Below are positions 36,532 through 52,274 of a stretch of 64,000 bases of DNA, piece by piece (within the stretch, counting starts at the first letter, position 1; the number at the start of each line of letters is the position of its first letter). The notes below the pieces were generated by a model, which saw nothing but the letters and a program-made list of their open reading frames with translations, was not told the DNA's origin and searched no databases. The stretch spans positions 1 through 64,000 of the forward strand of contig PDRA01000020.1 of assembly GCA_002747975.1 (NCBI GenBank). The letters are read 5' to 3'. The stretch is from Candidatus Altimarinota bacterium. Lineage in GTDB: Bacteria > Patescibacteriota > Gracilibacteria > BD1-5 > UBA2023. The position numbers were made by a program, and so were the translations under genes.

Positions 36532-38100
36532 CTATGGAAGGATTCTATCGAGAATTTGCTCGGTCCAATCATAGTAATAAAAACATGTTGTGTTAAGTAC
36601 GCCTGTATTTACAAGTTCTGCTGTTATTTGAGCGTTTTCACAAGACGGAATATCCAAAACAGCGAGGATTTTTGAGTCATCAGTAAGAGCATTTTTGATA
36701 TCCTGTGTTGCTGTCGTATAGATCCACTCTTCTGGATATCACCAGTCCGCATTATAGAGCATCACTCCAATATAGTCGAGATATTCTTCAAATTTACTTG
36801 GATTTTGGGCGACTTCTTTCATCTCAACTGGCAATACAAACGCTCAGAGCTCTAGATCTGGTTTGATGGCTTTGACAGAATCTGAAACTCTATGTATATA
36901 CGTTGCAATCTCATCTTGTCTGAAATTATTCCATGCCTGTCTTTGGGTATTATCAGTCGTAAAATCAATCGTAAGAGCATCGATACCGGTGAAGTCCTGA
37001 AATTTATCCCGAGTTGCTTGACTCATATCCATAGCATATCCATCAAATCGAACCCAATCAATAAAAAGTCCATCTATATCATAGTTTCTCGTCACTTCTT
37101 CTATGATAGCAATCTGATGATCTTGAACTGTGCTCGAAACAGGGTTGGCAAAATATTCACCATTTGGATTATAAAAAGCGACACCAGTTCCGCTCAAATA
37201 CATCATTTGATTGGCTGGATTATTGTTGATGACGACCTTATCATGAAACTGAGGAAGCCAAGCATATACCTTCATATCATTATTGTGAGCAAAATCGATC
37301 GTATACTCAAGTGCATCAAAATTCCAGGTTTGATAGTCCTGAGCAATAGGAGCAAGAGTACCACTATAAAACAACTCTCCAGAATCCATATGAGCGAGAT
37401 CTTCGTCATTTTTTACAAGCAAAATAATTGTTTTGATTCATTTATCGCGAAAAAGCTCAAGATGGTTTTGTGCAGCCCATCTATGTACGAAGTTTTCTGG
37501 GGTTCTCACGATGATAGTGTTTCTCTCCAAAAAAGGAGAAACACTGGTACTTCCTGTGCCTGTTGTTCAAGTTCCTGTTGTTCAGGTTCATGTTGTTCAA
37601 GTTCAAGTGCTTCAAGTTCAAGTGCTTCAAGTTCAAGTGCTTCAAGTTCAAGTGCTTCAAGTTCAAGTGCTTCAAGTTCCTGTTGTTCAGGTTCAGGTAC
37701 TTCAAGTTCAGGTATTCCCTGTTCCTGTATTTCCTGTACTATTTCCAGAAGCATTTACAGTATCATTTCTTCAAGATCTTGAATTCCCTCTTGATTGCTT
37801 TTTAGCTTTGAGTTCCTCTATTTTGAGTTGTATCTTTGCCTCGAGAAAATCTATAATAAGCCAGCGCTCTCCGTGATAGAATTTTTTGATTTCTCGGATT
37901 TTTGTTCTCAAGGCTTCAAATGTTTGGATTTTTGCATCAATTGACGAAACACTCATATCAACTTTTGCGATAAACGCAACAAATGGAGGATCAATATGAG
38001 ATCGAGTAGGAGCGTCTAAGGTTCATGAAAATGCACTCGCTCCAAAAAGATGACACCAAAAACCAACCACAAAAACAAAAAAGAGAGAGATATTTTTCAT
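36532..38100 (-). CDS. Secreted glycoside-hydrolase-like protein (GH10-like/DUF4015)
   Basis: A 522-residue exported protein. The signal peptide is NISLFFVFVVGFWCHLFG. A Lys/Glu-rich helical stretch (~50-110) is followed by a Gly-Thr/Ser linker coded by a tandem repeat (37561-37700). The C-terminal ~300 residues are a TIM-barrel family like DUF4015/GHL10 (YDIDGLFIDWVRFDGYAMDM, YAWLPQFHDK, YLDYIGVMLYNADWW). Catalytic acids probably lie in the FIDW and LDYIG regions. Probably acts on cell-surface glycans. Its stop abuts that of miaB (convergent, no gap). Confidence 0.85.
37561..37700 (-). repeat. Tandem 15-bp repeat coding a Gly-Thr/Ser linker
   Basis: On the plus strand CAAGTTCAAGTGCTT recurs about five times exactly, flanked by decayed relatives. 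Read on the coding strand it gives Gly-Thr-Gly-Ser-Thr with almost all Gly as TGA. A slippage-prone minisatellite, plausibly length-variable. Confidence 0.85.
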
Positions 38101-38176: not shown

Positions 38177-38656
38177 TTATACTCCTTGGAGCATTTCTAT
38201 ATACAAATTGCAGGTTTCTTTGAGGCCTTGTGAAAATGGATTATTCTCATATGCTTTGAACTGCTGAGTATACCATATATACAGACTTTGGATCTCTTGT
38301 GCTGCTTCTTTTTTGAGCGCCGTACGAGCCTGCTCTCTTGTCTCCTCATCGAGAGAGTCCCCAAACGAAGTATCTTGATTGATTTGCATATCTGTATTGT
38401 GTCATAGTCACTCAATACGAGACAAGAAATAAATATATTTTTTCTCAATTACCGGAACGATATACTCATAGGCTTGTTGCATCGTTTCGGTGATAAATTC
38501 AGGGTTATTTTGATACTCCAAGTTGTGAATTTGGTTCAATCTCTTATTAAAAGAATTCCACAATTCTTCTAAATAACTCGGTTTATACGGTCCTACAGCA
38601 AAATTTTTGAGCCGAAGAGAAGAAGGATAGTCTCAAGCATGATTTGGATTTGACAT
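38177..38656 (-). CDS. Hypothetical protein
   Basis: A 159-residue frame with TGA at Gly in NPNHAGDYP and RIEGLGHNT. It is a helical, Glu/Gln/Asn/Tyr-rich soluble protein (LEELWNSFNKRLNQIH, REQARTALKKEAAQEIQSLY) without signal peptide or membrane span. It begins MSNPNHAGDYPSSLRLKNFA. No family recognised. It lies downstream of the candidate RNA at 39064-39292 on the same strand, with repeats between. Confidence 0.65.
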
Positions 38657-38794
38657 AAAAAGAAATTTTTAAAAAAGTACTTAAATATACTATATAATTA
38701 TTTTTATATTTGTCAATATAAAAATTAAAGATACCTTTTGTCCGAGTAGGAAGCAGATCAAAGAATTCAACTCTTCGATAAGAAAAGGTATTTT

Positions 38795-39060
38795 CCCCTT
38801 AGTGAGGAGATTAAGCAGGTGTGTTCAAATAAGATTTTCAGCTCATACTCCACTGACACAATAATTGTATTTATCCCTCTCAGTGAGGGGATTAAGGGGG
38901 TGTGTCTGAATATAGTCCTCAATCAATACTACTCTGATAGAGTCTTCAACTGAACTCCACTGATACGATGATTGCATTTCTCCCCCTCAGTGAGGGGGAT
39001 TAAGGGGGTGTGTTCAAATAGAATTTCCAACTCATACTCCACTGCACAATGATTGTTACA
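38795..39060. repeat. Three tandem imperfect ~80-107 bp repeats
   Basis: Units begin near 38795, 38873 and 38981. Each starts with a CCCCTCAGTGAGGGG palindrome followed by ATTAAGGGGGTGTGT, an AT-rich middle, and a shared tail (ACTCCACTGA with a CACAATGATTGTA-like end). No ORF or partner gene is evident, and units differ in length. A small dispersed repeat cluster; I see no CRISPR structure. Confidence 0.75.
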
Positions 39061-39063
39061 TAT

Positions 39064-39100
39064 AAAAAAGCCCTTCTTCTTTGATTTGAAGAGAAGGGCT
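39064..39100 (-). terminator. Terminator of the candidate RNA
   Basis: On the minus strand AGCCCTTCT ... AGAAGGGCT hairpin followed by a U run. Confidence 0.85.
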
Positions 39101-39292
39101 GGTATTTGAAGGGGATGGGCGGTTCATCCCGTTAAGTGATTCCGCCTAGGTCCACCATCCTTGGTGACAGAACCAATGACTCTACTCATCACTTACAAGT
39201 AGAGAGATACTATTAGAAAAACTAAATGTACTCTGCATCAAATTCTGAATCTCAGCTCCCTGCTTATGAAACACACACTCTCTCAAGCGTGC
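39064..39292 (-). ncRNA. Candidate structured non-coding RNA
   Basis: A ~229-nt transcript unit on the minus strand with a promoter and terminator but no ORF. In transcript order it can form a GCACGC/GTGTGT hairpin near the 5' end, a CTCTACT/AGTAGAG hairpin (39170-39200), nested GGATGG...CCATCC and GGCGG/CCGCC stems (39113-39165), and a pseudoknot between AAGTGAT (loop of the second hairpin) and ATCACTT. Ending is at the 39064-39100 hairpin. I do not recognise tmRNA, 6S, SRP or T-box signatures. It is back to back with the AAA+ operon promoter. Confidence 0.6.
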
Positions 39293-39299
39293 AATATAG

Positions 39300-39326
39300 A
39301 TTATAACTAAAAAAATAAAAAGTCAA
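39300..39326 (-). promoter_or_regulatory. Promoter of the candidate RNA
   Basis: On the minus strand TTGACT (39321-39326) and TATAAT (39300-39305), spacing 15 bp. It fires away from the AAA+ operon, about 60 bp from its promoter. Confidence 0.6.
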
Positions 39327-39361
39327 GAAAAAACTTGCAAATTTTAAAATTATTTGTATTA

Positions 39362-39389
39362 TTGACAAGTATTTTATATATTTTATAAT
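39362..39389 (+). promoter_or_regulatory. Consensus promoter of the AAA+/LRR/vWA operon
   Basis: Exact TTGACA at 39362-39367 and TATAAT at 39384-39389, spacer 16. The start of transcription is expected near 39396, only ~2 nt before the ATG at 39398, so the mRNA would be leaderless. Confidence 0.75.
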
Positions 39390-39397
39390 TTTTTTCT

Positions 39398-41788
39398 ATG
39401 GCGGAAATTTATACAGAAATTTGAGAGCTTGATAGCCTTAAGCAAGAACTCTTCTTTCTGAGGCAAAAATATCAAGGCTTCCCTTTTGTCCAAGATGAAT
39501 ATAAGGGCAAAACAATTTTTGATGTCTTTGAAGCAGTGGGAAATGATGAAAAGCAGATGAAACAAATCCTCACCCAAAGTGCGCTCGAAAGGCATACAGT
39601 CGACTATAAATGAACTGCACAAAAGTTTGATTTTTTCAAAGAACATGGACTTCATTCATATATGAAATATCAAGTGCATCAAATCAGCCAAAGCGTAGGA
39701 CAAGTGATGCATGATATCATGAGATACAGAGAGATCAATGCCAATATTCATCAAAAAAATAATCAGAGTATAGCAATATCAGGAGAGCAAAACCCACTTT
39801 CACAAGTTGCTGATTTTTATCGAGGGACTATACTCTCTCGTCTGCGAAAGAAAAAAGAGCAAGAAAAAATAGGATTTTGGGATGAGTGAGAAATAGATAG
39901 TGATCTTGCTCAATTTCTCTGAATCGATATAGATGCTTCTCAAACAATCAATCCAGAGATCGAGTCACTTGTGTGGAAATATGATTTTTTCAAACGGATC
40001 CAACAATCGGTAGAAAAATGATATGTACTGAGCTATAGAGAGATGGAACTCATCAATGATATTATAAAAGATCTCAAAAATGGAGAGGTTGTACTGATGA
40101 CAGGAGACACTGGAAGTGGTAAAACAGAACTCGCGAAGTTTCTCGTCAAAGAGTATATGCAATCAGAGTATGTATTTGTCAGTGGAAACAAAGAAATGGA
40201 AGTCAGCGACCTCACTCTCGAAAAAAATGTCACCTCAAGATCACTTCTCGATACCGATACTCATATTGTCGATGGAAAAGAAGAAACCCAAGAACAACAG
40301 GCAGTAAAATTTCTAGAAAAAATAGTATATACAAACCAATTCAAACAACTGGTTTTACAAAAAGCAGAGGATCTGGGAAAAAGTCAGGAAGAGATCCAAA
40401 AAATATGAGACGAACTGCAGAATATAGATCTTCTCGATAAAAAACTTATCACCGAGTATCATCTCATGGGAGTGTACAAAGCTGCCAAACTTGGTATTGC
40501 CTGTATTATTGATGAGACCAATATCATACGACCAGAGGTGCTTATGGCGCTCAATGATACTCTCACAAAGCATATTGGAGATACAATCCAACTCCCAAAT
40601 GCTCTCGATGATATCACAGTCAAAAAATGATTTTGTATCATTCTGACAGGAAATGATCCCGAACAAAACAAAAACGCTGAAACTTACAGCTCTGGTCGAT
40701 ACAAGTTCGATGAAGCAACCTACAATCGACTCCGAGTTTACGCAAAAAACTATGCTCGCCAGATCATAGAAACTCACAAAGAAAATAAGATAGAGAGTGT
40801 CCAAGATTACACACTCAATTTTCTCGAAGACAATGAGCTCTATGGAATAGTACTGATGATGATGTTTTGATGAAAAGAAAATCTCAATCACAGTGGAAAA
40901 TATGGTTTTGAGATTATGAAAAAAGATTTCGAAGGAAAATATATTGGAAAAAAAGAATTTTTTAAAACTCTTAAAAGTCTTTCAAAATCGATTTCTCTTA
41001 TACAAAGATCATTTTCAAATGAAGTTATCCCGCTCTCTGGAGCGAACTCCACATTTAGTCTCAAGGATCATATCACTCGAAAGGTTTTTTCAATGCGAAA
41101 TCTCACACATGTAATTGCTGGTTTCAAAAATGATACCCTCCCAATTGAGTACCATATCTGGAATGAATTTGTGAAACATACGACCAATACAGATGAGCAG
41201 TATGCTCTCTTGCTTGCTTTTTCAGAGTTTGGACTCTTTGGCGATCTGATTACCGATAATAGAGAAGCAAGTATCAATAATATAAAACGAAAAATCCGAA
41301 ACCTCAAAACACAGGAAAATACCATCAGCATAACAGATATAGAAAACAAAGTAACCATCACAAAACAGGATATGTATAAAACATATTTTGGTTCTATGGA
41401 CTTGGGAGATGATTTTTTTGAGAAAAATATAGAAAATATACACCAAAAACAAGAAGATAATGAGACTCAAGATGAAGATGAAATGGACTCTTCTTGGATC
41501 GATGAAAATATAGAAGTCACAGAAGAAAGTCTCCAAGAAATAATACAAAACCTCGATGAGCTTGTAAATCAAAACGAAAGAGAATTTGATCTTGGAGATT
41601 TTTTCTTTCTGACACAATTTTTCAAACAACTGGGTACAGAAATACGAGAAAACAATATTGATACAAGCAAATACAATATTCTCTACTCTGCTCTTCTCAA
41701 AATGACACAAATTTTTAAAACATTTGAGGATTGATGAGAATTTGATGCAGATGCTTTTATGAATCTTGTAAAAGATATTAATAATTAA
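39398..41788 (+). CDS. MoxR-type AAA+ ATPase
   Basis: A 796-residue frame with a long N-terminal helical region (~1-230) and a P-loop domain at ~230-440. Walker A is LMTGDTGSGKTELAKFL, Walker B is LGIACIIDETN, and sensor-1 is CIILTGND. This hexameric-type AAA+ arrangement matches MoxR/dynein-like ATPases that remodel proteins together with a vWA partner. The C-terminus is acidic and Gln/Glu-rich (HQKQEDNETQDEDEMDSSW). First gene of the operon; followed 8 bp later by an LRR gene. Several TGA-Gly are in frame. The N-terminal domain is unfamiliar. Confidence 0.85.
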
Positions 41789-41796
41789 ACACTAAA

Positions 41797-42963
41797 ATGA
41801 ACGTAAGTACAGTACCCACATCTACAAAATCATCATCTCATACGGCAATTATGGCGGAAGTTTGAGGGATTATTAATATAGTATGAACTCAGGCGATGGA
41901 GTGAATTCATGAATCTCGAGAAAATATGGCAGAGCTTTTGGGGGAATTGGAGGATGTAGTGAATCAGAGAAGAAAAGAGATAAATTATGATTACGGTTAT
42001 GATGATTATGAAGCAAGAGTTTGTCAGAGTGATATATTTTTTGAGAAGACACTTCAAGAGAAAGTGCTCAGTATTCCAGAAATAAGGAATTTGTATTATA
42101 AGATCACTTCCCTTTTCCAAGAAAATGATAGAGAAGTAGCAGGAAAAAAGATGCAAGAAGAGTATTTAGCTGATCTTGTTTTCGAAAGTATGAAAAATAA
42201 GGAATTAAAAAAATGAGAACTATATATAACGCCATGAAAAAAAGAGAAAAGCTTAAAAAAACTTAAAGACAAAATAAGGGGAGCACAGTGAAACTGAATA
42301 AAGATTCTGAATTTACACGATTATGAATGACTAAAATGTTTCGAAGCAGATGAGATATTGAAATTTGCAAGAAATTTGAAATGAAGTGGGGTACGTAGAT
42401 TAAATCTATGAAGTAATCAACTCTGAGAAATCCTTGGGAAAGATGGAGTAATAAAATTTATAAAGGCGCTGAGATGAAGTGGGGTACGTAGCTTAAATCT
42501 ATGAAATAATCAACTATGAAATAATCAACTCTGAGAAATCCTTGGGAAAGATGGAGCAATAGAATTTATAAAGGCATTGAGGTGAAGTGGAATAAAAAGT
42601 TTAAATTTGTGGGATAATGGGCTATGAGAATATCTTGAAGTAGATGGTATGATAGAGTTCATAAAAGCATTGAAATGAAGTAAAGTACGAGAATTAATAT
42701 TGGGTTGGAATCAATTATGAGAATATCTTTGAAAGGATGGAATGATAGCATTTGCGAAGGCTTTACGATGAAACGAAATACGAGTTTTAGATTTGATGTG
42801 AAATAAATTGTGACAATTTCTAGAAGAAGATGAAATGATAGCTTTTATAAAAATACTAGAATGAAGCGAGATACAGTATCTGAATATATGATACAATGGT
42901 CTGTCAGAAAAATTACAAAAAAAGATACAAGAAAAGTTTCCAAATATACATTTTAGATTTTAA
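41797..42963 (+). CDS. LRR protein 1 of the cluster
   Basis: A 388-residue paralogue of the family. The conserved N-terminal domain (~1-130) includes AIMAEVGGI, ELLGELEDVVNQRRKEI and QEEYLADLVFES. It is followed by about six 31-residue leucine-rich repeats of pattern LxGSxVRxLNLxxNxLGxxLxxDGxIxF, ending in a KIQEKFPNIHF cap. Most repeat Gly codons are TGA. It starts 8 bp after the AAA+ gene. Two neighbouring repeats (42382-42560) are nearly identical at DNA level, and one shows a 15-bp internal duplication. No signal peptide; cytosolic. Confidence 0.85.
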
Positions 42964-42970
42964 AAACACT

Positions 42971-44413
42971 ATGAAAACAGCTACAGTACCCACATCTACA
43001 AAATCATCACCTCATACAGCAATTATGGCGGAAGTTTGAGGGATTATTGGTATAGTATGAACTCAGGTGATGGAGTGAATTCCTGAATCTCAAGAAAAAT
43101 TTATCACACTTTTACGAGAATTGGAGGACTTGGTGAGTCAGAGAAGAAAAGAGATAAATTATAACTACGATCATCGTGATTATAGAAAAAGGCTCTGTCA
43201 AAGTGATGAAGTTTTTGAGAAGACACTGCAAGAGAAAGTGCTCAGTATTCCAGAAATACAAGAACTGTATTATGAAATAATTTCCCTCTTTCAAGAGAGT
43301 GATCGAGAAGTAGCAGGAAAAAAGATACAAAAAGAGTATTTAACTGATTTGGTTTTTGAGAGCATGGAGAATATCGAATGGGGAGAATTTAAAAATCTTA
43401 TTATACAAAATCAAAAGAGTAAAGATAAGAAACAAAATTTAGAAAGGTATAAGCAGAAAATACAAGCAATGCAGTCAAGAGGAGCAAGACATTTAATTTT
43501 GAGATGAAATGAGTTATGAAAGCATCTCTGAAAGGATGGCGTAATAGAACTTATAAAATATCTTAAATGAAGTGAGATACAAGTTTTTGTTTTGAGTTGA
43601 TATGATTTATGACAAATTTTCTGAAAAGATGGAATGGTGGAGTCTGCACAAGCTCTAAAATGAAGCAGAGTACGGGCTTTGGATCTGAATTGAAATAAAT
43701 TATGACAAATCCTCTGAAAAGATGGAATAGTAGAATATACACGAGCTCTAAAATGAAGTGAAGTGCGAATTCTCAGCTTGAGCTGAAATGAATTATGAGA
43801 ATTTCTTGAAAAAGATGGGATGATAGAACTTGCAGAGGTTCTGGGACCAAGTAAAATACAAGCTTTAGAGTTGGGCTGAAATGAATTATGAAAATATCTT
43901 GGAGCAAATGGAATCATAGGATTTGTGAAAGCCCTAAAATGAAGCGAAATACGAGTATTGGATTTGAGCTGAAATGAGTTATGAAGATATCTTGGAACAG
44001 AAAGAATAATAGAACTCATAGAAACTTTACATGAAAATGGAGTACGAAATGTAAATTTGCGGAATAATAGGTTATGAGGGTACTTATGAAAAGATGGAAT
44101 GATAGCGTTTGCACATGCTCTAAAATGAAGCGAAATACGAGTCTTGGATTTGAGTTGAAATGAACTATGAAAAAACCTTGAAGCAGATGGAATGATAGCA
44201 TTTGCAGAGGCTCTAAGATGAAGTAAAATACAGGGTCTTGACTTGAGTTGGAATAAGTTATGCAAATATCTTGAAGCAGATGAAATAGTCGAATTTGTGA
44301 AGGTATTGAATTGAATTTGAATACAAAAATTGAATTTGGAATTGAACCAAATACAAGAAGAAACTCAACAAGAACTCTTAGAAGCCTTTCCAGAAATACA
44401 TTTTGACTTTTAA
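42971..44413 (+). CDS. LRR protein 2 of the cluster
   Basis: A 480-residue paralogue, the longest, with the same N-terminal domain (SSPHTAIMAEVGGIIGIVG ... TDLVFESMENIE) and about nine 31-residue repeats (KGSEIRVLDLSGNELGKNL style). Every repeat contains several TGA-coded Gly. It ends with ALEAFPEIHFDF-type cap (EAFPEIHFDF). The spacing to LRR1 is 7 bp and to the vWA gene 14 bp. No enzymatic motif. The domain split suggests a conserved docking N-terminus with a variable recognition solenoid. Confidence 0.85.
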
Positions 44414-44427
44414 TTTTTTAAAACATT

Positions 44428-46911
44428 ATGACTACTATCAACCAAACATCACTGTTCGAAACAGAAATCCCAAAAGAATTTGATACTTTTTTGGAGTATT
44501 TTGATACCTGGATACAAGGACAAAAATCAGCAATGAGACATTTTTTGTGAGTCAATTCGCCGATACATATTATCTACAAAGACTTACCAACTTTTGCATT
44601 TCAACCAAATACAAAAAATATCATCATTCCTCTGAGTTTTTTAAAAGTATTTCATAGAAATATCACCCAAAATAAGCCATGAAATCCATTTTTGTACAGT
44701 TTTGAAGATTTGAAAATGGGAATCTATCACGAGCTTTCACACTTCCGAGATATGCTCCACGAAAAAGACAGTAAAAAAAGATGAGCGATGATACAAATTC
44801 TCAAACATATTCAGAAAGAAAAAATCATGATAAACGCAAATAAATATATACCAATTGCAAATCAAATGCATGATCTCGTCAATTGTGTCGATGATATCAT
44901 CGTCAATACAGAAGTGGAGATGAATCTACAGGCAGAAATCTCGAGAGAATATATGCAAGGAGTATATATCTACAATCTTTTTGCTGATGTTTACGAAGAG
45001 AACTGATGAGATTATAGAGTAAGCAAAGAATGAGGAATTGAATATGTATGAGAAGGCAATGGAACACACCGAATCAATGACAAGGGAGAAATAGACTATT
45101 CAAGCAAGCAGCTTTCACAGGCATTTCCCAACTTCTTGTTGCGAAGTTTCATGGTGAAGAGCCAAAGCATCAAGCTCCCAGAAAAAGTAGAAAATATACT
45201 CTTCTCAAATAAACACAGGCGAGCTCGACCGAGCTGGAAAATATCGATACAAAGACAGGTATGACAGATGAAGGCATATTTCAACGAAATTGAAAATAAT
45301 CCTCAATATACAAAACGAGTGCAAAAACTCAAACCAGAATATATGCAGATAATTGAAATACTTGAAAAGGCAAAAGACAATGAACAACTCGAAAATCTCC
45401 TCTCACAGAGCATCAAAAACACAAATACAACCAGACGATTTTATGAAAAAACGATCAATCTTATTGATATTATCAGACTCTTTACTCTCTCAAGTGGAAA
45501 AGAGAATTCGCATGAACTTGATATATCGCCATGAATGCGATATGAAATATATAAAGCACTTTTTCTTCCACTCCAAAAGTCCTTCATTCTTATGGATCTC
45601 TTGACCAAAGATATCAAGGATAGCAACAAAAAATGAGAAAACGGAGAATGAAAGAATGGAAAATGAGAAAACGGGGAATGAGAGAAGGGAAAATGAGAGA
45701 ATGGAAAATGAGAAGATGATAAGCCATGAGATGAAAATCAAGAGAAGGAACCTCAAGATGCATGATCTGGAAATGGACCTGTACATGAGAGCCCAGATAT
45801 AGACGAGAAAATAAAATTCTTGGAAGAAGTTGATAAAGAAGAAAATAAAAAAGAACAAGAAGAACTTGCCAAAAAACAAGTCGAAAAAAGTCAATATGAT
45901 GTCGATTCTATATTTGATGGAAGTGGAGTATGAAAAGTATGAAAAGATATATTTGAGCATATTTCTCACAAATACAATGAATACATAAAAGAAATTGTAG
46001 AATTTTTTATCAAGGAACTTGCCAAGCTTGAAAGAAAAGAAATACGAGAAGAATACAGCGGAAAAAAATGAACCCTCGATCCTCAAAAACTACGATCTTA
46101 CATCGCTCAGGATCCAAGCATGTCACAAATCGATACCAAAAAACTCTACAAAAGGTATAATTATAGAGAAAAAATTGCTGAAACACTCAAAAAAATAGAT
46201 CTCACACTTGCCATCGACATATCTGGATCAACCAATTCTTTTCGTGGAAAAGATGGAATGATCAATATCATATCAACTCTGCTTTTTGTCGCTATGAAGC
46301 ATATCGAACAACATATCAATCACACACTATGAATTCCAGATTATACAATTCCAGTTGAGTTCTTGCTCTACGGAGATGGAACTCCGTATTCTTCGTATCA
46401 CTCTGAGCACAAAAACAGCAGCAATGAGGTGCGTATAGCAGAAATGAATGAAAAATTAATAAGTCTTGATGGCGGAACCAATGACACTACGGCGTGGGAG
46501 AAAATATCGCATGAATTCAATGCACAACTCTCACAAGACCCAGAATACACACAAGAAATCAAAGACCATAAACGCAGACCAATTATTCTGCAGATTGCTG
46601 ACAGTGATGTCTCTGAAAATGGAGTCGAATCAATCAAAAAAGTAATGAAAAAACACTTACAAGATGATGCTCTCATCGATTCTCTCCCGATAAAACGAAT
46701 CATACTCTGAAATATACAAAATATCAATATCTCACAACAAGAGTATGAAGCTCGAAAGAAAATGTGAGAGCTCTGAAACTGGGAACCAAATTTCCTCCCT
46801 GATGGAAGCGTTCAGCTCAAGCAAATATCCATCAAATCAAGAGATGAAATACTTGGTCAAATCAAAGCACTGTTCAAAAACTTTTTTGTAGATATGAAAG
46901 AAAATATTTAA
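44428..46911 (+). CDS. vWA-domain protein with zincin-like N-terminus
   Basis: An 827-residue frame. Near residue 101 the sequence IYHELSHFRDML gives HExxH, a zincin-type motif preceded by a hydrophobic helix. A central linker is Glu/Lys/Gly-rich (NGEGKNGKGENGEG), nearly all its Gly coded by TGA. The C-terminal vWA domain has a full MIDAS: LAIDISGST (D597, S599, S601), LDGGTNDTTA (T684) and IADSDVSENG (D725). MoxR-vWA pairs act together; this one sits between two LRR genes. Whether the HExxH is catalytic is unproven. No signal peptide was seen. Confidence 0.85.
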
Positions 46912-46921
46912 ATTGCACTCT

Positions 46922-47893
46922 ATGACACTTACAAACTATTCATTCCATGAAGATACACCACCTCATACAGCAATTATGGCGGAAGTTTGAGGAATTATTG
47001 GTATGGTGTGAAATAAGGCAATGGAGTGACTTTCTCAATCTCGAGAAAATATGAGAGAGCTTTTGGGGAGATTGGAGGACTTAGTAACGAAGGAAAGAAA
47101 CAAAATAAATTATAATTATGCCGATTATGAAGAGAGACTGTGTCAAAGTAATGAAGTTTTTGAAAAGACACTGCAAGAGAAAGTACTTAGTATTTCAGAA
47201 ATAAGGAATATGTATGATGAGATTATCTCTTTGTTTCCAGAAGATTCACAAGAACTTGCAGAGAAGCGGATACAAGAAGAGTATTTAGCTGATTTGGTTT
47301 TTGAGAGTATGGAAAATAAGGAATTAGGGCAATTTAAAGTATATGAAATGTATGGATATACAAGTGGAATTAAAAAAAACAACTTGAAAATGTGCAAAAA
47401 CGAAATAAAAAAAATCCAATGAAATGAAATGAAAAAACTAGTTTTTGATTGGTGTGACCTGTGAAAATATCTTGGAACAGATGGGATAGTGGATCTTATG
47501 AAGATTCTAGAATGAAGGGGGATACGATATTTGGATTTGGTACATAATAGATTATGAGAATATCTTGGGGTAGATGGAATGATAGCATTAATAAAAACTT
47601 TACACGGAAGCGGAGTACGAGGTTTGAATTTGTGAGATAACGCATTGTGAAAATATCTTACAAAAGATGAGATGATGAGATTTACAAGAGCTCTAAAGTG
47701 AAGTGGAATACAGTATTTATCTTTAGCCTGAAACGAGCTATGAGAATATTTCACGAAAAACGAAATATTTGAATTTGCAAAAGTTTTATGATGAAGTGGA
47801 CTACGAAGTTTGAATTTGTGGAGTAATGAATTGTCAGAAGAATTTCAACAAGAACTCATCGAAGCCTTTCCAAATATACATTTTGAATTCTAA
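46922..47893 (+). CDS. LRR protein 3 of the cluster
   Basis: A 323-residue paralogue. The N-terminal domain (HTAIMAEVGGIIGMVGNKA ... LADLVFESMENKEL) is conserved; five to six 31-residue repeats follow (GSGVRGLNLGDNALGKYL) and it ends QELIEAFPNIHFEF. It lies 10 bp after the vWA gene and 5 bp before LRR4. TGA is frequent at repeat glycines. Confidence 0.83.
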
Positions 47894-47898
47894 AAACT

Positions 47899-48987
47899 AT
47901 GAACACAGCTATAGAACACACATCTATGAATCCACTGCCTCATACAGCAATTATGAATGAAGTTTGAGAGATTATTGGTATGGTATGAACTCAGGCGATG
48001 GAGTGACTTTCTCAGTCTCAAGAGAATATGGCAGAGCTTTTGGGAAAATTGGAGGATTTGGTGAATCAGAGGAGGAAAGAGATAGATTATACCTACTACT
48101 GGGATTATGAAAGAAGGCTATGTCAGAATGATGAAGCGTTTGAAAAGACACTACAAGAGAAAGTCTTGTATAACTCGAAAAAATGGCTTAAGATTTGAAA
48201 AAAACAAAGTGAGATTTGAAAGCTCTATTTCAAGATTATTTCTCTCTTTCCAGAGGATGCACAAAAGCTTGCAAAGAAACGGATACAAGAAGAATATTTA
48301 ATGGATTTAGTTTTTGAGAGTATGGAGGGCGACGAGTTAGAATGAGGAGAAGAGTACAAAATACAAAATCAAGTAGGTGGAGATAGAGAGGAAAATCTAG
48401 AAAAGTACATCGAAGAAATACGCAAAATACGATGAAGTGAAATAAGAAGTTTGAATTTATGGAATAACAAATCATGAAAATATCTTGGGACAGATGGAAT
48501 GATAGAGTTTGCAAGAGCATTGAAACGAAGTAGGATACGAGCCTTAAATTTGAGTCGGAATGAATTATGAGAACACCTTGGAACCGATGGAATAGTCGAA
48601 TTTGTGAGGGCACTGAAATGAAGTGAGATACGAAGTTTGATTTTATGGAATAATGAATTGTGAAAACACCTTGGAGTAGATGGAATGGTGAAGTTTGCAG
48701 AGGCTCTAGGATGAAGTGGGATACAACATTTGGATATATGAAACAATGAATTATGAGAATATCTTGGGACAGATGGTATGATAAAATTTGCAGAGGCTCT
48801 GGAATGAAGTAAGATTAAAAGTTTAGGATTATGATGAGAATATCCCGGATTATATGGGATGATAAGATTTGCAAAAGCTCTGGAATGAAGTGGAATAAAG
48901 AGTTTGAAATTATGACATCACAAGTTATCAGTAGAATCCCTCGAAGTACTCGAAAAAAAAATTCCAAATATACACTTTAGATATTAA
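47899..48987 (+). CDS. LRR protein 4 of the cluster
   Basis: A 362-residue paralogue. The N-terminal domain has a variant stretch LYNSKKWLKIGKKQSEIG not seen in LRR1-3 but shared with LRR6. About six repeats follow, the last ones divergent (SLGLGGEYPGLYG), ending KKIPNIHFRY. Gly codons are largely TGA. Spacing to LRR5 is 6 bp. Confidence 0.83.
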
Positions 48988-48993
48988 AAAATT

Positions 48994-49965
48994 ATGGACA
49001 CAATTGTAGGACACACATCTATAAAATTATCACCTCAAGAATCTCTTGTAAGAAAAGCTTGAGAAGTTGTTGGTATGGTGTGAACTCAGGCAATGAAGTG
49101 AGTTCATGAATCTCAAGAGAATATGATGAAGCTTTTGGGAAAATTGGAGGATTTGGTGAATCAGAGGAGAAAAAAGATAAACTACGATTACAGTGATTAT
49201 AGGAAAAGACTTTGTCAAAGTGATGAGATTTTTGAAAGAACATTACAAGAAATTATATTTAACATTCCAGAAATAAAAAATTTATATGATGAAATAATTT
49301 CTCTCTTTCCGGAAGATATGAAAAAATTCGCAGAGGATCGGATACGAGAAGACTATTTAACTGATTTGGTGTTTGAAAGTATGGAAATCAAAAAATGAGA
49401 ACAAGAGAAAGAATATAAAATGCGAAGTAAAATGAGTAAAGACAAAGACAAAAATCTAAAAAAGTGTAAAGAGAGTATGAAAAAAATACAGTGAAGTGGA
49501 ATAACACATTTGGATTGAACTTGGCGTGGACTGTGAGAATATCTATGAAAAGATGGGATAATAGAATTTGTACTAACACTAAAGTGAATCGGAATACAAT
49601 ATATATCTTTGGCTTGAAATGAACTATGAAAATATCTTGGAGTAGATGGAATGGTGGAGTTTGCAAGAGTATTAAAGTGAAGTGGGATACGAAGTTTAAA
49701 TTTATTCAATAATACGTTATGGGAGCACTTATGAAAAAGTGGAATGGTGGAGTTTGCAAAAGCGCTGAAATGAAGTGGGATATGAAGCTTGAATCTTGTT
49801 TTGAATGAAATATGAAAATTTCTTGAAAAAGATGAAATAATTGAATTTGTAACAGCCTTGAGATGAAGTGAAATACAGCATTTGAACTTATGGGATAATA
49901 ATATACCAGAAGAAGCTCAACAAGAACTCACCGAAACCTTTCCAGATATACATTTTGAATTTTAA
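48994..49965 (+). CDS. LRR protein 5 of the cluster
   Basis: A 323-residue paralogue with a different extreme N-terminus (SPQESLVRKAGEVVGMVGTQA) shared in style with LRR6. Then KLLGKLEDLVNQRRKKI and TDLVFESMEIKK, a charged linker, and about five repeats ending ELTETFPDIHFEF. The spacing to LRR6 is 6 bp. Confidence 0.83.
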
Positions 49966-49971
49966 AAAATT

Positions 49972-51065
49972 ATGAACCCAATTGTAGAACACGCATCTAC
50001 GAACCCATCACCTCAGAAATCTCTTGCTCAAGAGGTTTGAAGGGTGATTGAAATGGTGTGAGCTCAGGCAATGGAGTGACTTTCTGAATCTCAAGAAAAT
50101 ATGAGAGATCTTTTGAGAAAATTGGAAGATTTAGTAAATCAAAGGAGAAAAAAGATACATTATAATTACTGGGATTATGAAAAGAAACTACATCAAAGCG
50201 ATGAGATGTTTGAAAAAATACTTCAAGAGAAAGTCCTGTATAGCTCGAGAAAATGGCTTAGGATTTGAAAAAAACAAAGTGAGGTTTGAGAACTCTATTT
50301 CAAGATTATTTCTCTCTTTCCAGAAAATACACAAGAACTTGCAGAGAAACGGATACAAGAAGAGTATTTGGCAGATCTTGTTTTGAAAATATGAAGATCA
50401 AAAAATGAGAACAAAAAAAAGAATATAGGATGCAAAGTAAAATGAGCAAAGACAAAGGCAAAAATCTAAAAAAGTACAAAGAGGATATGAAGAAGATACA
50501 GTGAAGTGGAATAACACACCTAATTTTAAAGTGGTGTATACTATGAAAGCACGTATGAAAAAATGGGATCATAGAGTTTGTAGAGAATTTGAAATGAAGT
50601 GGGATACGAGTTTTGGATTTGGATTGAAATGAATTATGAAAATATCTCTGAAAAGATGGAATGATAACACTTGCAAAGACTCTGAAATGAAGTGGAGTAC
50701 GAAGCTTGGACTTAGGATCTAATGAGCTATGAGAATACCTCTGAAAAGATGGCATGATAGCTTTTGCAAAGGCCCTGGGATGAAGTGAAATACGAAGCTT
50801 GAACTTAGGATCTAATGAATTATGAGAATATCTCTGAAAGGATGGGCTGATAGCTTTTGCAAAAGTTCTGGAATGAAGTGGAATACGATATCTGGATTTA
50901 TACTGGAATAAACTCTGAAGGCACCTGACAAAAAATGAGATCATAGAATTTGCAAAGATGCTCAGATGAAGTGGAGTACGAAATGTGAATTTGTTTAATA
51001 ATAAACTGTCAAAAGTACTCAAAGAAGAACTCGAAACTATTCTAGATATAGATATTATAACATAA
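49972..51065 (+). CDS. LRR protein 6, frame broken by one base
   Basis: The sixth paralogue. The N-terminal domain (SLAQEVGRVIEMVGAQAM, LRKLEDLVNQRRKKI, and the LRR4-like variant SRKWLRIGKKQSEVG) is in frame 1 to about 50384. There LADLVLKI replaces the family LADLVFES because a run of four T (50381-50384) stands where relatives have five. Without repair the frame stops at 50467. Downstream the rest of the protein reads perfectly in frame 0 through six repeats to TAA at 51063. A recent inactivating deletion, a phase-variable T run or a sequencing error would each explain it. Confidence 0.75.
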
Positions 51066-51081
51066 TATCTGACAAGCACTA

Positions 51082-51110
51082 AAAAGGACCCAAAGTGGAT
51101 CCTTTTTTTA
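51082..51110 (+). terminator. Terminator of the operon
   Basis: AAAAGGACCC ... GGATCCTTTT imperfect hairpin followed by a T run, 16 bp after LRR6. It also faces the convergent gene at 51132. Confidence 0.75.
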
Positions 51111-51131
51111 TTAAGAAAATGAAGAGGATTC

Positions 51132-52274
51132 TTAGTTGATAGCTCGGCACGAGCTTCCAGCCTGCTTCTTGTAAGCATTTGCAAGAGCTGTATTTTTTGC
51201 ATAACTGGCAATCACATAGGCATCACAGGCAACCTTGCTCGACATCCATCATTTTGCCTTGATTTGATCAATCGTAGAGAGTGCCTTGCTGTATTGTGTG
51301 ATGATAAAGTAGGTTCGATATCGCAGACTCAAAACTTCGAAGTTTGGAGCATATTTTGCGAGGTAGTTATCAGATTTCTGAATTACACTGACATATCGGT
51401 TATTGTCGTAGTCGGCTTTGATAGCAGCAATTTCACTTGCATTTCCATTTGTACTCTGAGTGTTTGTATTTGGCTTCGTATCATTTGGTTTTGTATCATT
51501 TGGTTTTGCCGAAGATACGCTGCCAGTCGTCTGGACTGAGGTATTATTTGCATTTTCTGGAAGAGAGTAGATGATAGGCATACGAACCAGATATGGATCA
51601 GCGACAAAAATACGCTCTACACCAGAGAATGGATTACTTCCCCGTCGTGTGATATACCATCATGTTGTACGATCAAATTCAAAAAATCAAACCAACGTTC
51701 GCTTGAATGTCGATGTATCAAACTTATAAAGAAGTTTGGCATCATAGCTACCGGAAAGAGTATTTCCATAGTAGAGAATATCGACAAAAACATGATCGTC
51801 ACTTCCCTTCACAAACTCATACCCACCAATTACTGCCGGCTGACGAATTTTGTAAAATGGTTTTATATTTTCCCAATCTTTGTGAATTTGATTGATAAAT
51901 CCAAGATGTTGAGCATTTGTAATATGCGATGTAGGTGCTTGGAAATTGAGCGAGAGAGATGATTGGCTCACCTTGGCTAACGCTGGCGGATTGACTGTAT
52001 TTGATACCGATACTTTCTTATCATTCAATCATCGCAATTTTTTGATTGCTTCCCAGCGCTCAAGTGGGATTTTTACATTTTGCTCCTGGAGAATTTGCTT
52101 GAGCATTTTATTTTCTGCCTCGAGATAGAGAACTTGTTGCTTATACTCGGCAAGAAGTTTCTCAAGTTTTTCTGCTATTTGCTCAGCAGAAAGCTGTGTA
52201 TTTGCAAACACGAGAAGAGGCAGTCCAATCAGCAATGCAGCTGATACAGTTTTGAAAAAAGAAAAAGATTTCAT
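51132..52274 (-). CDS. Secreted protein with coiled-coil N-terminus
   Basis: A 380-residue exported protein with three TGA-Gly. Signal peptide FFKTVSAALLIGLPLLVFAN, then a heptad-like helix EKLEKLLAEYKQQVLYLEAE. The middle has beta-type segments (HVFVDILYYGNTLSGSYDAK) and a low-complexity spacer (KPNDTKPNDTKPNTNTQST). The end resembles a TPR-type helical repeat (NRYVSVIQKSDNYLAKYAPN, KALSTIDQIKAKG) with a conserved Cys pair. No family recognised; an envelope protein. Confidence 0.72.

Follow-up and report, generated by a model that had tools for sequence, protein, structure and literature searches.

A putative split, midasin-like AAA+/zincin-vWA system with an array of leucine-rich repeat proteins in a Gracilibacteria genome

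An AAA+/zincin-vWA/LRR operon

We analyzed a stretch of 64,000 bases (the window) of contig C26 from Candidatus Altimarinota bacterium, an uncultured, tiny symbiont-type bacterium whose genome (G000) is a 0.98-Mb assembly of 41 contigs, 92% complete. At 39362-51110, a first-pass annotation had described eight tightly spaced genes between a near-consensus promoter and a terminator, encoding an AAA+ ATPase, a von Willebrand factor A (vWA) protein with a metal ion-dependent adhesion site (MIDAS) and an HExxH motif, and six leucine-rich repeat (LRR) paralogues with a common N-terminal domain (N-domain). The operon is real. Using code 25 (TGA = glycine), the code of SR1 and Gracilibacteria, co-directed frames are open across 39398-51065; with table 11, the same genes are fragmented. 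On the forward strand, the genes encode the AAA+ ATPase (39398-41788, 796 aa), LRR1 (41797-42963, 388 aa), LRR2 (42971-44413, 480 aa), the zincin-vWA protein (44428-46911, 827 aa), LRR3 (46922-47893, 323 aa), LRR4 (47899-48987, 362 aa), LRR5 (48994-49965, 323 aa), and LRR6 (49972-51065), with gaps of 8, 7, 14, 10, 5, 6, and 6 bp. The tight spacing (5-14 bp) therefore stands, but LRR6 is not one open gene: a frameshift separates its N-domain from its repeats, such that the N-domain frame (49972-50469) closes ahead of the LRRs, which lie in another frame (50265-51065). The break may reflect a pseudogene, an assembly error, or phase switching. The other five LRR genes are open over 323-480 aa.

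The predicted ends of the unit were also borne out. A sigma-70-like promoter (TTGACA-16-TATAAT, 39362-39389, forward strand) matches the consensus at 12 of 12 positions and is the sole such site in 38600-51500, where 57 promoter-like sites were observed and 49.8 expected. Since it ends 8 bp upstream of the ATG, the leader would be very short if this promoter is used. A hairpin followed by a T run on the same strand (51081-51107; -9.7 kcal/mol, z -2.56) forms the terminator; 2 of 200 shuffles were equally good, and the hairpin was not on the list from a consensus scan of 38600-51500. A simple hydropathy scan detected no signal-like or membrane segment in the operon proteins (19-residue maxima 0.4-1.5), while the same test picked out such a segment in two nearby genes (2.0). 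As the products lack export signals by this measure, their site of action would be the cytoplasm. The role in surface recognition that had been suggested for the operon is not supported, and a surface adhesin is likewise disfavored.

The AAA+ protein matched Pfam AAA_5, the dynein-related subfamily (E 1.1e-9), in agreement with its annotation. Its Walker A (residues 236-243), Walker B (IIDE, 370-373), and TGN (417-419) motifs are largely invariant in an alignment with three relatives. Matches above the nSTAND3 (E 1.4e-6) and ABC_tran cut-offs are read as P-loop cross-matches, and the best NCBIfam match, GvpN (3.7e-5), fell far under its cut-off. By its AAA_5 match and the MIDAS vWA fold of its neighbor, the protein belongs with the AAA+ ATPases of the MoxR/dynein-midasin clade that lie beside a vWA gene.

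The zincin-vWA protein had no match at E 0.1 in Pfam, NCBIfam, or PADLOC, and we characterized it through motifs, alignment, and a structural model. It consists of an N-terminal HExxH domain, a helical part, a charged linker (residues ~395-455), and a C-terminal MIDAS vWA domain (498-827). The zincin motif runs from HELSH at residue 101 to NCVDDIIVN at 152 (44728-44907, forward strand), and H101, E102, H105, N152, D156, V159, and N160 are invariant among ten aligned homologues; D156 may be a metal ligand. The MIDAS residues are D597, S599, and S601 (DISGS at 597), T684, and D725 (46216-46602, forward strand), with T684 and D725 conserved in six aligned vWA proteins. Both the MIDAS and the HExxH of the annotation are thus present. 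Homologues from three other genomes (G576, G234, and G420) scored above the Pfam VWA cut-off. Between zincin and MIDAS, the most acidic stretch of 60 residues, a maximum by choice, held 15-41 Asp or Glu residues in 11 proteins. The acidic linker is clear in the window and in G477, and weak or Gln-rich in G234, G455, and G420 (Gln-rich in G234).

In the model of this protein (mean predicted local distance difference test score, pLDDT, 75.9; predicted template modeling score, pTM, 0.55), the N-terminal half is helical and includes the HExxH helix, with ten-residue blocks mostly at pLDDT 76-96. A disordered stretch (~399-454) is followed by a C-terminal alpha/beta domain at lower confidence. The best structural match of the modeled vWA domain is the MIDAS domain of Rea1/MDN1, which fills the first four rows in VIA, with alignments that start at residue 498-500, and takes ranks 1-4 in Foldseek. 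The fold alignments cover mainly residues 518-825, and the domain extends to about residue 824 of 827. The modeled domain has a MIDAS fold with a Rea1-like N-terminal extension.

The LRR proteins are paralogues, as annotated: the N-domains of LRR2-LRR6 are 55-75% identical to that of LRR1, and nucleotides 12-409 of LRR1 share 84% identity with LRR2. Pfam LRR_1 was above cut-off in LRR1 (E 8.1e-6), LRR2 (E 9.9e-9), and LRR3, and below it in LRR4 and LRR5, which we classed as LRR proteins by repeat scoring; the LRR part of LRR6 was recognized by open reading frame (ORF) reading and repeat scoring. The repeats are beta-alpha LRRs of 28-31 residues that form a horseshoe of the ribonuclease inhibitor (RI)/NLR type; LRR1 joins its N-domain to RI-like repeats and LRR2 has nine scored repeats. 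In a model of LRR3, an all-alpha N-domain (16-129) precedes the LRRs (139-322). A viral fold search with the LRR model gave no match at E <= 0.001. Two further matches were set aside: CNF1 on LRR2 (Pfam E 3.9e-5, under cut-off) as chance or a cross-match on repeats, and Csm2/REase_II on LRR3 (PADLOC E 0.01-0.02) as chance.

Near-identical internal repeats, which the annotation had emphasized, occur in a few pairs (86% in LRR6, 82% in LRR1) but are not the rule, as repeats of the same gene are on average 63.7% identical (83 pairs) and those of different genes 61.9% (445 pairs). The proposal that the array diversifies fared better. In some pairs of genes, the N-domains resemble each other more closely than the repeats do, and repeat-column scoring places variability on the concave face of the window LRRs. 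Within one LRR1 repeat, we also observed a 15-bp tandem duplication (42499-42534) that is likely a slippage scar.

Recurrence of the core and its changing neighbors

To ask where else this gene set occurs, we searched 353 genomes of the class. The vWA protein matched in eight at E <= 0.001: strongly in G000, G022, G025, and G066, less strongly in G002 (1.1e-15), and weakly in G048, G049, and G299, the last counted as a homologue by motif and context. The vWA-like proteins of G285, G255, and G283 were excluded, as they are without HExxH. AAA searches matched 22 of the 353 genomes; matches beyond G000, G002, G022, G025, G066, and G299 were weak (E 2.7e-8 or worse), and the loci L074, L075, and L077, which by eye contain ABC-type genes, were used as controls.

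Arrays of AAA, vWA, and LRR genes were present in three genomes from two families. In addition to the window, G022 carries AAA, eight LRR genes, and vWA in that order on one 15-kb contig, and G066, from another family, has AAA-LRR on one contig and four LRR genes, vWA, and two LRR genes on a second. No second genome with the locus was found for strain comparison in the two genera searched. A profile of the LRR N-domain, which does not reach the N-domains of G066, matched 3 of the 353 genomes (six genes in G000, eight in G022, one in G025), each with a vWA gene, and 14 of the 15 matches lay inside an array. The association proposed for the window thus recurs in two other genomes, and the pattern that would have told against it, N-domains mostly found without AAA/vWA neighbors, did not occur in this sample. 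The single G025 gene lies apart from the AAA/vWA couple, near genes that by eye resemble tyrosyl-tRNA synthetase and ClpP. One LRR protein of G066 (L017:5618-6862, reverse strand) scored above cut-off for the ubiquitin-like domain ULD_2 (Pfam E 7.7e-12) inside its repeats, probably a cross-match on these repeats.

Across 379 genomes of the phylum, a profile built from ten zincin-vWA proteins had matches in 18, compared to 6 with an earlier vWA profile. We read the neighborhoods in 13 of these 18 genomes, the window included, leaving out weak matches (G513, G540, G593, G618, and G657), and added G022, G066, G002, G299, and G234 from the class searches for a survey of 18 loci. HExxH and the D-x-S/T-x-S MIDAS motif were present in all 18 vWA proteins, and N-x3-D-x2-VN in 13 (absent from G543, G544, G584, G497, and G446). 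An AAA gene lies on the vWA contig in 15 of 18 loci (a fragment in G497) and on another contig in G066.

Different repeat classes adjoin these homologous cores. Profile-supported or homologous repeat proteins flank 8 of the 18 loci: LRR proteins in the window, G022 (by BLAST to the window), G066 (LRR_6, 1e-22), and G437 (1e-31); ankyrin in G002 (8.4e-31); WG in G299 (2.2e-16) and G477; and WD40 in G391. G025 also has a second AAA gene, which lies next to an ankyrin protein (1.3e-32). By eye, a G234 neighbor is LRR-like and a G576 neighbor propeller-like. This change of repeat class beside homologous vWA genes is what would be expected if, as the annotation had proposed, the repeats select targets.

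Adjacent paralogue groups, detected by BLAST, were found in eight loci (window, 5 members; G022, 8; G066, 6; G455, 3, one being an ORF that overlies the template repeat; G391, 10; G543, 3; G497, 2; G446, 5). Other paralogue pairs (G002, G420, G437, and G544) were left uncounted as overlapping ORFs or, by eye, ordinary-looking enzymes. Reverse transcriptases (RTs) adjoin G455 (RVT_1, 3.4e-20) and G584 (8.2e-20) by Pfam and G481 by eye. By profile or BLAST, 13 of the 18 loci have at least one of a repeat protein, a paralogue group, or an RT, and 14 with G481 by eye. Any paralogues were present in 2 of 10 control stretches (2 and 5 ORFs); these controls were few and unmatched, two contain other AAA genes, and scoring of the loci was unblinded.

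Three of these loci show how the neighbors vary. In G477 (contig C46; L041, L068, and L116), 37 ORFs of at least 200 aa lie downstream of the couple, spanning ~49 kb of a 1.1-Mb genome. BLAST did not group them; when aligned by script on the first cysteine, most begin with a similar M-x-C stretch. Of eight scanned, three were above the WG cut-off, four were WG or propeller matches below cut-off, and one had no match. G391 contains a tandem array (L108:802-14074) in which the N terminus of two WD40-ending members recurs in others (41-70% identity over 53-67 positions). Two of those others, when scanned, gave no Pfam match. In G455 (L043:2201-8869), an RT, a 137-nt template, and two variable repeats lie beside the AAA/zincin-vWA couple. 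All 21 differences between variable repeat 1 and the template fall at template adenines (26% of the template), as do 20 of 30 differences for repeat 2, so that the locus has the RT and adenine-specific repeats that define a diversity-generating retroelement (DGR). At G481 and G584, both on short contigs, no DGR repeats were detected. Because of the shared N termini in G391 and the retroelement in G455, "adaptor" is more than a label for these neighbors.

At G446 (L115:372-6040), the vWA gene is surrounded by paralogues that have both ends in common, closing with TPPRPERKELN, and differ in the middle. A VasL match on one G446 protein (E 1.4e-6, just above cut-off) is ascribed to chance or cross-matching.

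We also looked for defense and viral contexts. Apart from the Csm2/REase_II matches given above, PADLOC reported a single match among the operon proteins, mad8 on the P-loop (E 2.7e-5), and an ordinary defense system is not supported. When nine chosen flanking genes from eight genomes were searched, G576 yielded HEC-05 (2.9e-178), G455 PDC-S01 (2.2e-63), and G544 a match to mad3/mad8 that by eye resembles an ABC exporter; six of the nine had no defense match at E 1e-4. This evidence is too thin to place the loci in defense islands. Viral carriage was not confirmed in any viral contig (192 pattern stretches), and tblastn with three vWA queries gave no phage match. The 11 PHROGs families matched, mostly tail fibers, each came from 1 of 10 members and were read as low complexity. 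Upstream of the operon, a glycosyl-hydrolase-like protein with a hydrophobic start (36532-38100, reverse strand; GHL10, E 3.7e-17) contains a Ser/Thr-Gly-Thr-Gly run encoded by 15-bp tandem repeats (37566-37710).

Relationship to midasin and to MoxR-vWA systems

As in midasin (Rea1/MDN1), the operon combines an AAA_5-type motor with a C-terminal MIDAS domain, and the charged linker may be a further likeness. Midasin, which functions in ribosome assembly, is a single giant chain containing six AAA domains, whereas here the motor and MIDAS are on separate chains (796 and 827 aa) and a zincin motif is added; six AAA+ domains and a MIDAS in one chain were not found. The midasin ligands Rsa4/NLE1 and Ytm1/WDR12 are WD40 proteins. 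They carry a ubiquitin-like docking domain, while the proposed docking domain modeled here is all-alpha.

NorQ-NorD, RavA-ViaA, and CobS-CobT are not known to have adaptor arrays. Unlike the proposed system, these pairs have dedicated metal-insertion or assembly tasks, as described for most of them in PMC7159879. The same paper predicts conflict systems in which a MoxR-vWA couple is joined by a third, variable component of the VMAP, iSTAND, FtsH, or beta-propeller type, some with DGRs or beta-propellers (Kaur et al. 2020, PMC7159879). The operon resembles these ternary systems in its MoxR-clade AAA+ and vWA couple and its variable third part. It differs in its vWA protein, which starts with a zincin domain and closes with the MIDAS domain, and in its third component, for which an array of individual repeat proteins takes the place of a single part (LRR here; ankyrin, WG, or WD40 in relatives). 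The words "leucine" and "ankyrin" do not occur in the main text of PMC7159879. Scans of the eight operon proteins against Pfam, NCBIfam, and PADLOC, general libraries rather than those authors' profiles (LRR6 without its LRR part), assigned no VMAP, iSTAND, or FtsH label as third component. Jumbo phages encode a pair with the same two-gene logic, MoxR and a vWA protein with an N-terminal metallopeptidase; the description in the accessible text names no repeat-protein set (PMC7824862).

The first-pass annotation had considered this gene combination unfamiliar, which is partly correct. A MoxR-vWA couple with a variable third component was known, and diversification of the recognition part beside such couples is a published theme (PMC7159879 and PMC10907252), so that the retroelement link was partly foreshadowed in print. 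In PubMed Central (PMC), we found no paper joining Patescibacteria, MoxR, and vWA. As far as these searches show, the new elements are the arrayed LRR genes, the variation in repeat class around a Patescibacteria zincin-MIDAS core, and the likeness to midasin.

A possible mechanism and its alternatives

The reading we place first, tentatively and at somewhat under an even chance, is that the couple is a split, midasin-like machine with exchangeable repeat-protein adaptors. In the mechanism that we infer, the AAA+ protein would form a motor ring that acts on the MIDAS domain. This domain, on its charged flexible tether, would grip the shared helical N-domain of an LRR adaptor, perhaps via an invariant acidic residue, as Rea1 does with Rsa4/Ytm1. 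The LRR arms would bind target proteins inside the cell, the motor would pull the adaptor-target assembly apart, and the zincin domain might cut the target or the adaptor. Tandem duplications that preserve the N-domain but alter the repeats would diversify the repertoire of adaptors. From the signs of diversification and the kinship with the ternary systems, our first guess, and the likeliest role, is intracellular conflict directed at phage, another invader, or partner-cell proteins.

One alternative, which we consider unlikely, is that the repeat proteins are clients, and that the AAA/zincin-vWA pair is a chaperone-processing couple that matures or assembles LRR proteins acting elsewhere. 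Known MoxR-vWA couples, such as NorQD, are assembly or insertion chaperones (PMC7159879), and the jumbo-phage pair is proposed to process virion proteins (PMC7824862). Clients encoded together in an operon would give the same picture, and the operon itself is explained almost as well. What would not be expected of clients is that the fold class changes among LRR, ankyrin, WG, and WD40 while the core stays constant.

A second alternative is that the machine is an effector set of the bacterium's lifestyle, acting on proteins or surface structures of a partner or prey cell rather than on invaders. We judge this improbable, given that the hydropathy scan detected no export segment and that a motor ring would need the interior of its own cell. 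Least probable of all is that repeat slippage and duplication produced the array incidentally and that it has little function, beside a couple that does ordinary work: the LRR6 frameshift and the LRR1 duplication would fit, but arrays persist in three genomes and two families with conserved N-domains, and five of the six LRR genes are open.

Several observations weigh against the split-machine reading. The midasin likeness is carried by the vWA fold and the AAA_5 match: in the PDB, a profile of four AAA+ proteins matched only chains of ClpC, HslU, and FtsH (E 4e-4 to 9e-3), with neither midasin nor MoxR among them. The modeled vWA region has pLDDT 46-91 by tens, at the pTM given above, and the Foldseek superpositions are loose (root-mean-square deviation 9-10), with rank 5 close behind (E 3.6e-4 versus 2.3e-4). 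The zincin domain had no Pfam match in eight proteins scanned and no listed structural match. In G025, the AAA gene is followed directly by vWA, with its LRR N-domain gene elsewhere; no AAA gene was seen at two of the 18 loci (G584 and G446), where contigs end; and four (G576, G234, G420, and G544) have no profile-supported repeat protein, adjacent paralogue group, or RT. In the G022 repeats, two of the five most variable columns are concave, and the window flanks are not a defense island. Finally, in N-domain profile comparisons, window and G022 are related (probability 90, E 1.4e-6), and the other 27 of 28 pairs reached probability 3.6 or less. As N-domains of different lineages are not detectably homologous, they do not support one common docking mode. 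Either docking evolved repeatedly, the domains diverged past detection, or the adaptors dock differently.

The same motor and grip with a swapped recognition part in relatives suggests a general recognise-and-dismantle system. In a broader and more doubtful form of the split-machine reading, Patescibacteria would share a modular intracellular recognition machine, in which a constant, midasin-like AAA+/zincin-MIDAS core is combined with interchangeable, self-diversifying adaptors (LRR, ankyrin, WG/WD40, and DGR-mutated domains) that choose the proteins to be pulled apart and cut. Such a system would be the prokaryotic equivalent of a receptor repertoire linked to a remodeling protease. Patescibacteria genomes are tiny, yet some devote from ~12 kb (window) to ~50 kb (G477) to a single locus of this kind. 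Should the couple act on whatever its repeat proteins bind, it would amount to a bacterial midasin whose ligands can be programmed. Such a machine would join three questions: the role of the many repeat proteins and retroelements, how these bacteria meet phages or partner-cell proteins, and how a MIDAS motor chooses its clients. With different adaptors on one core, the question becomes directly testable.

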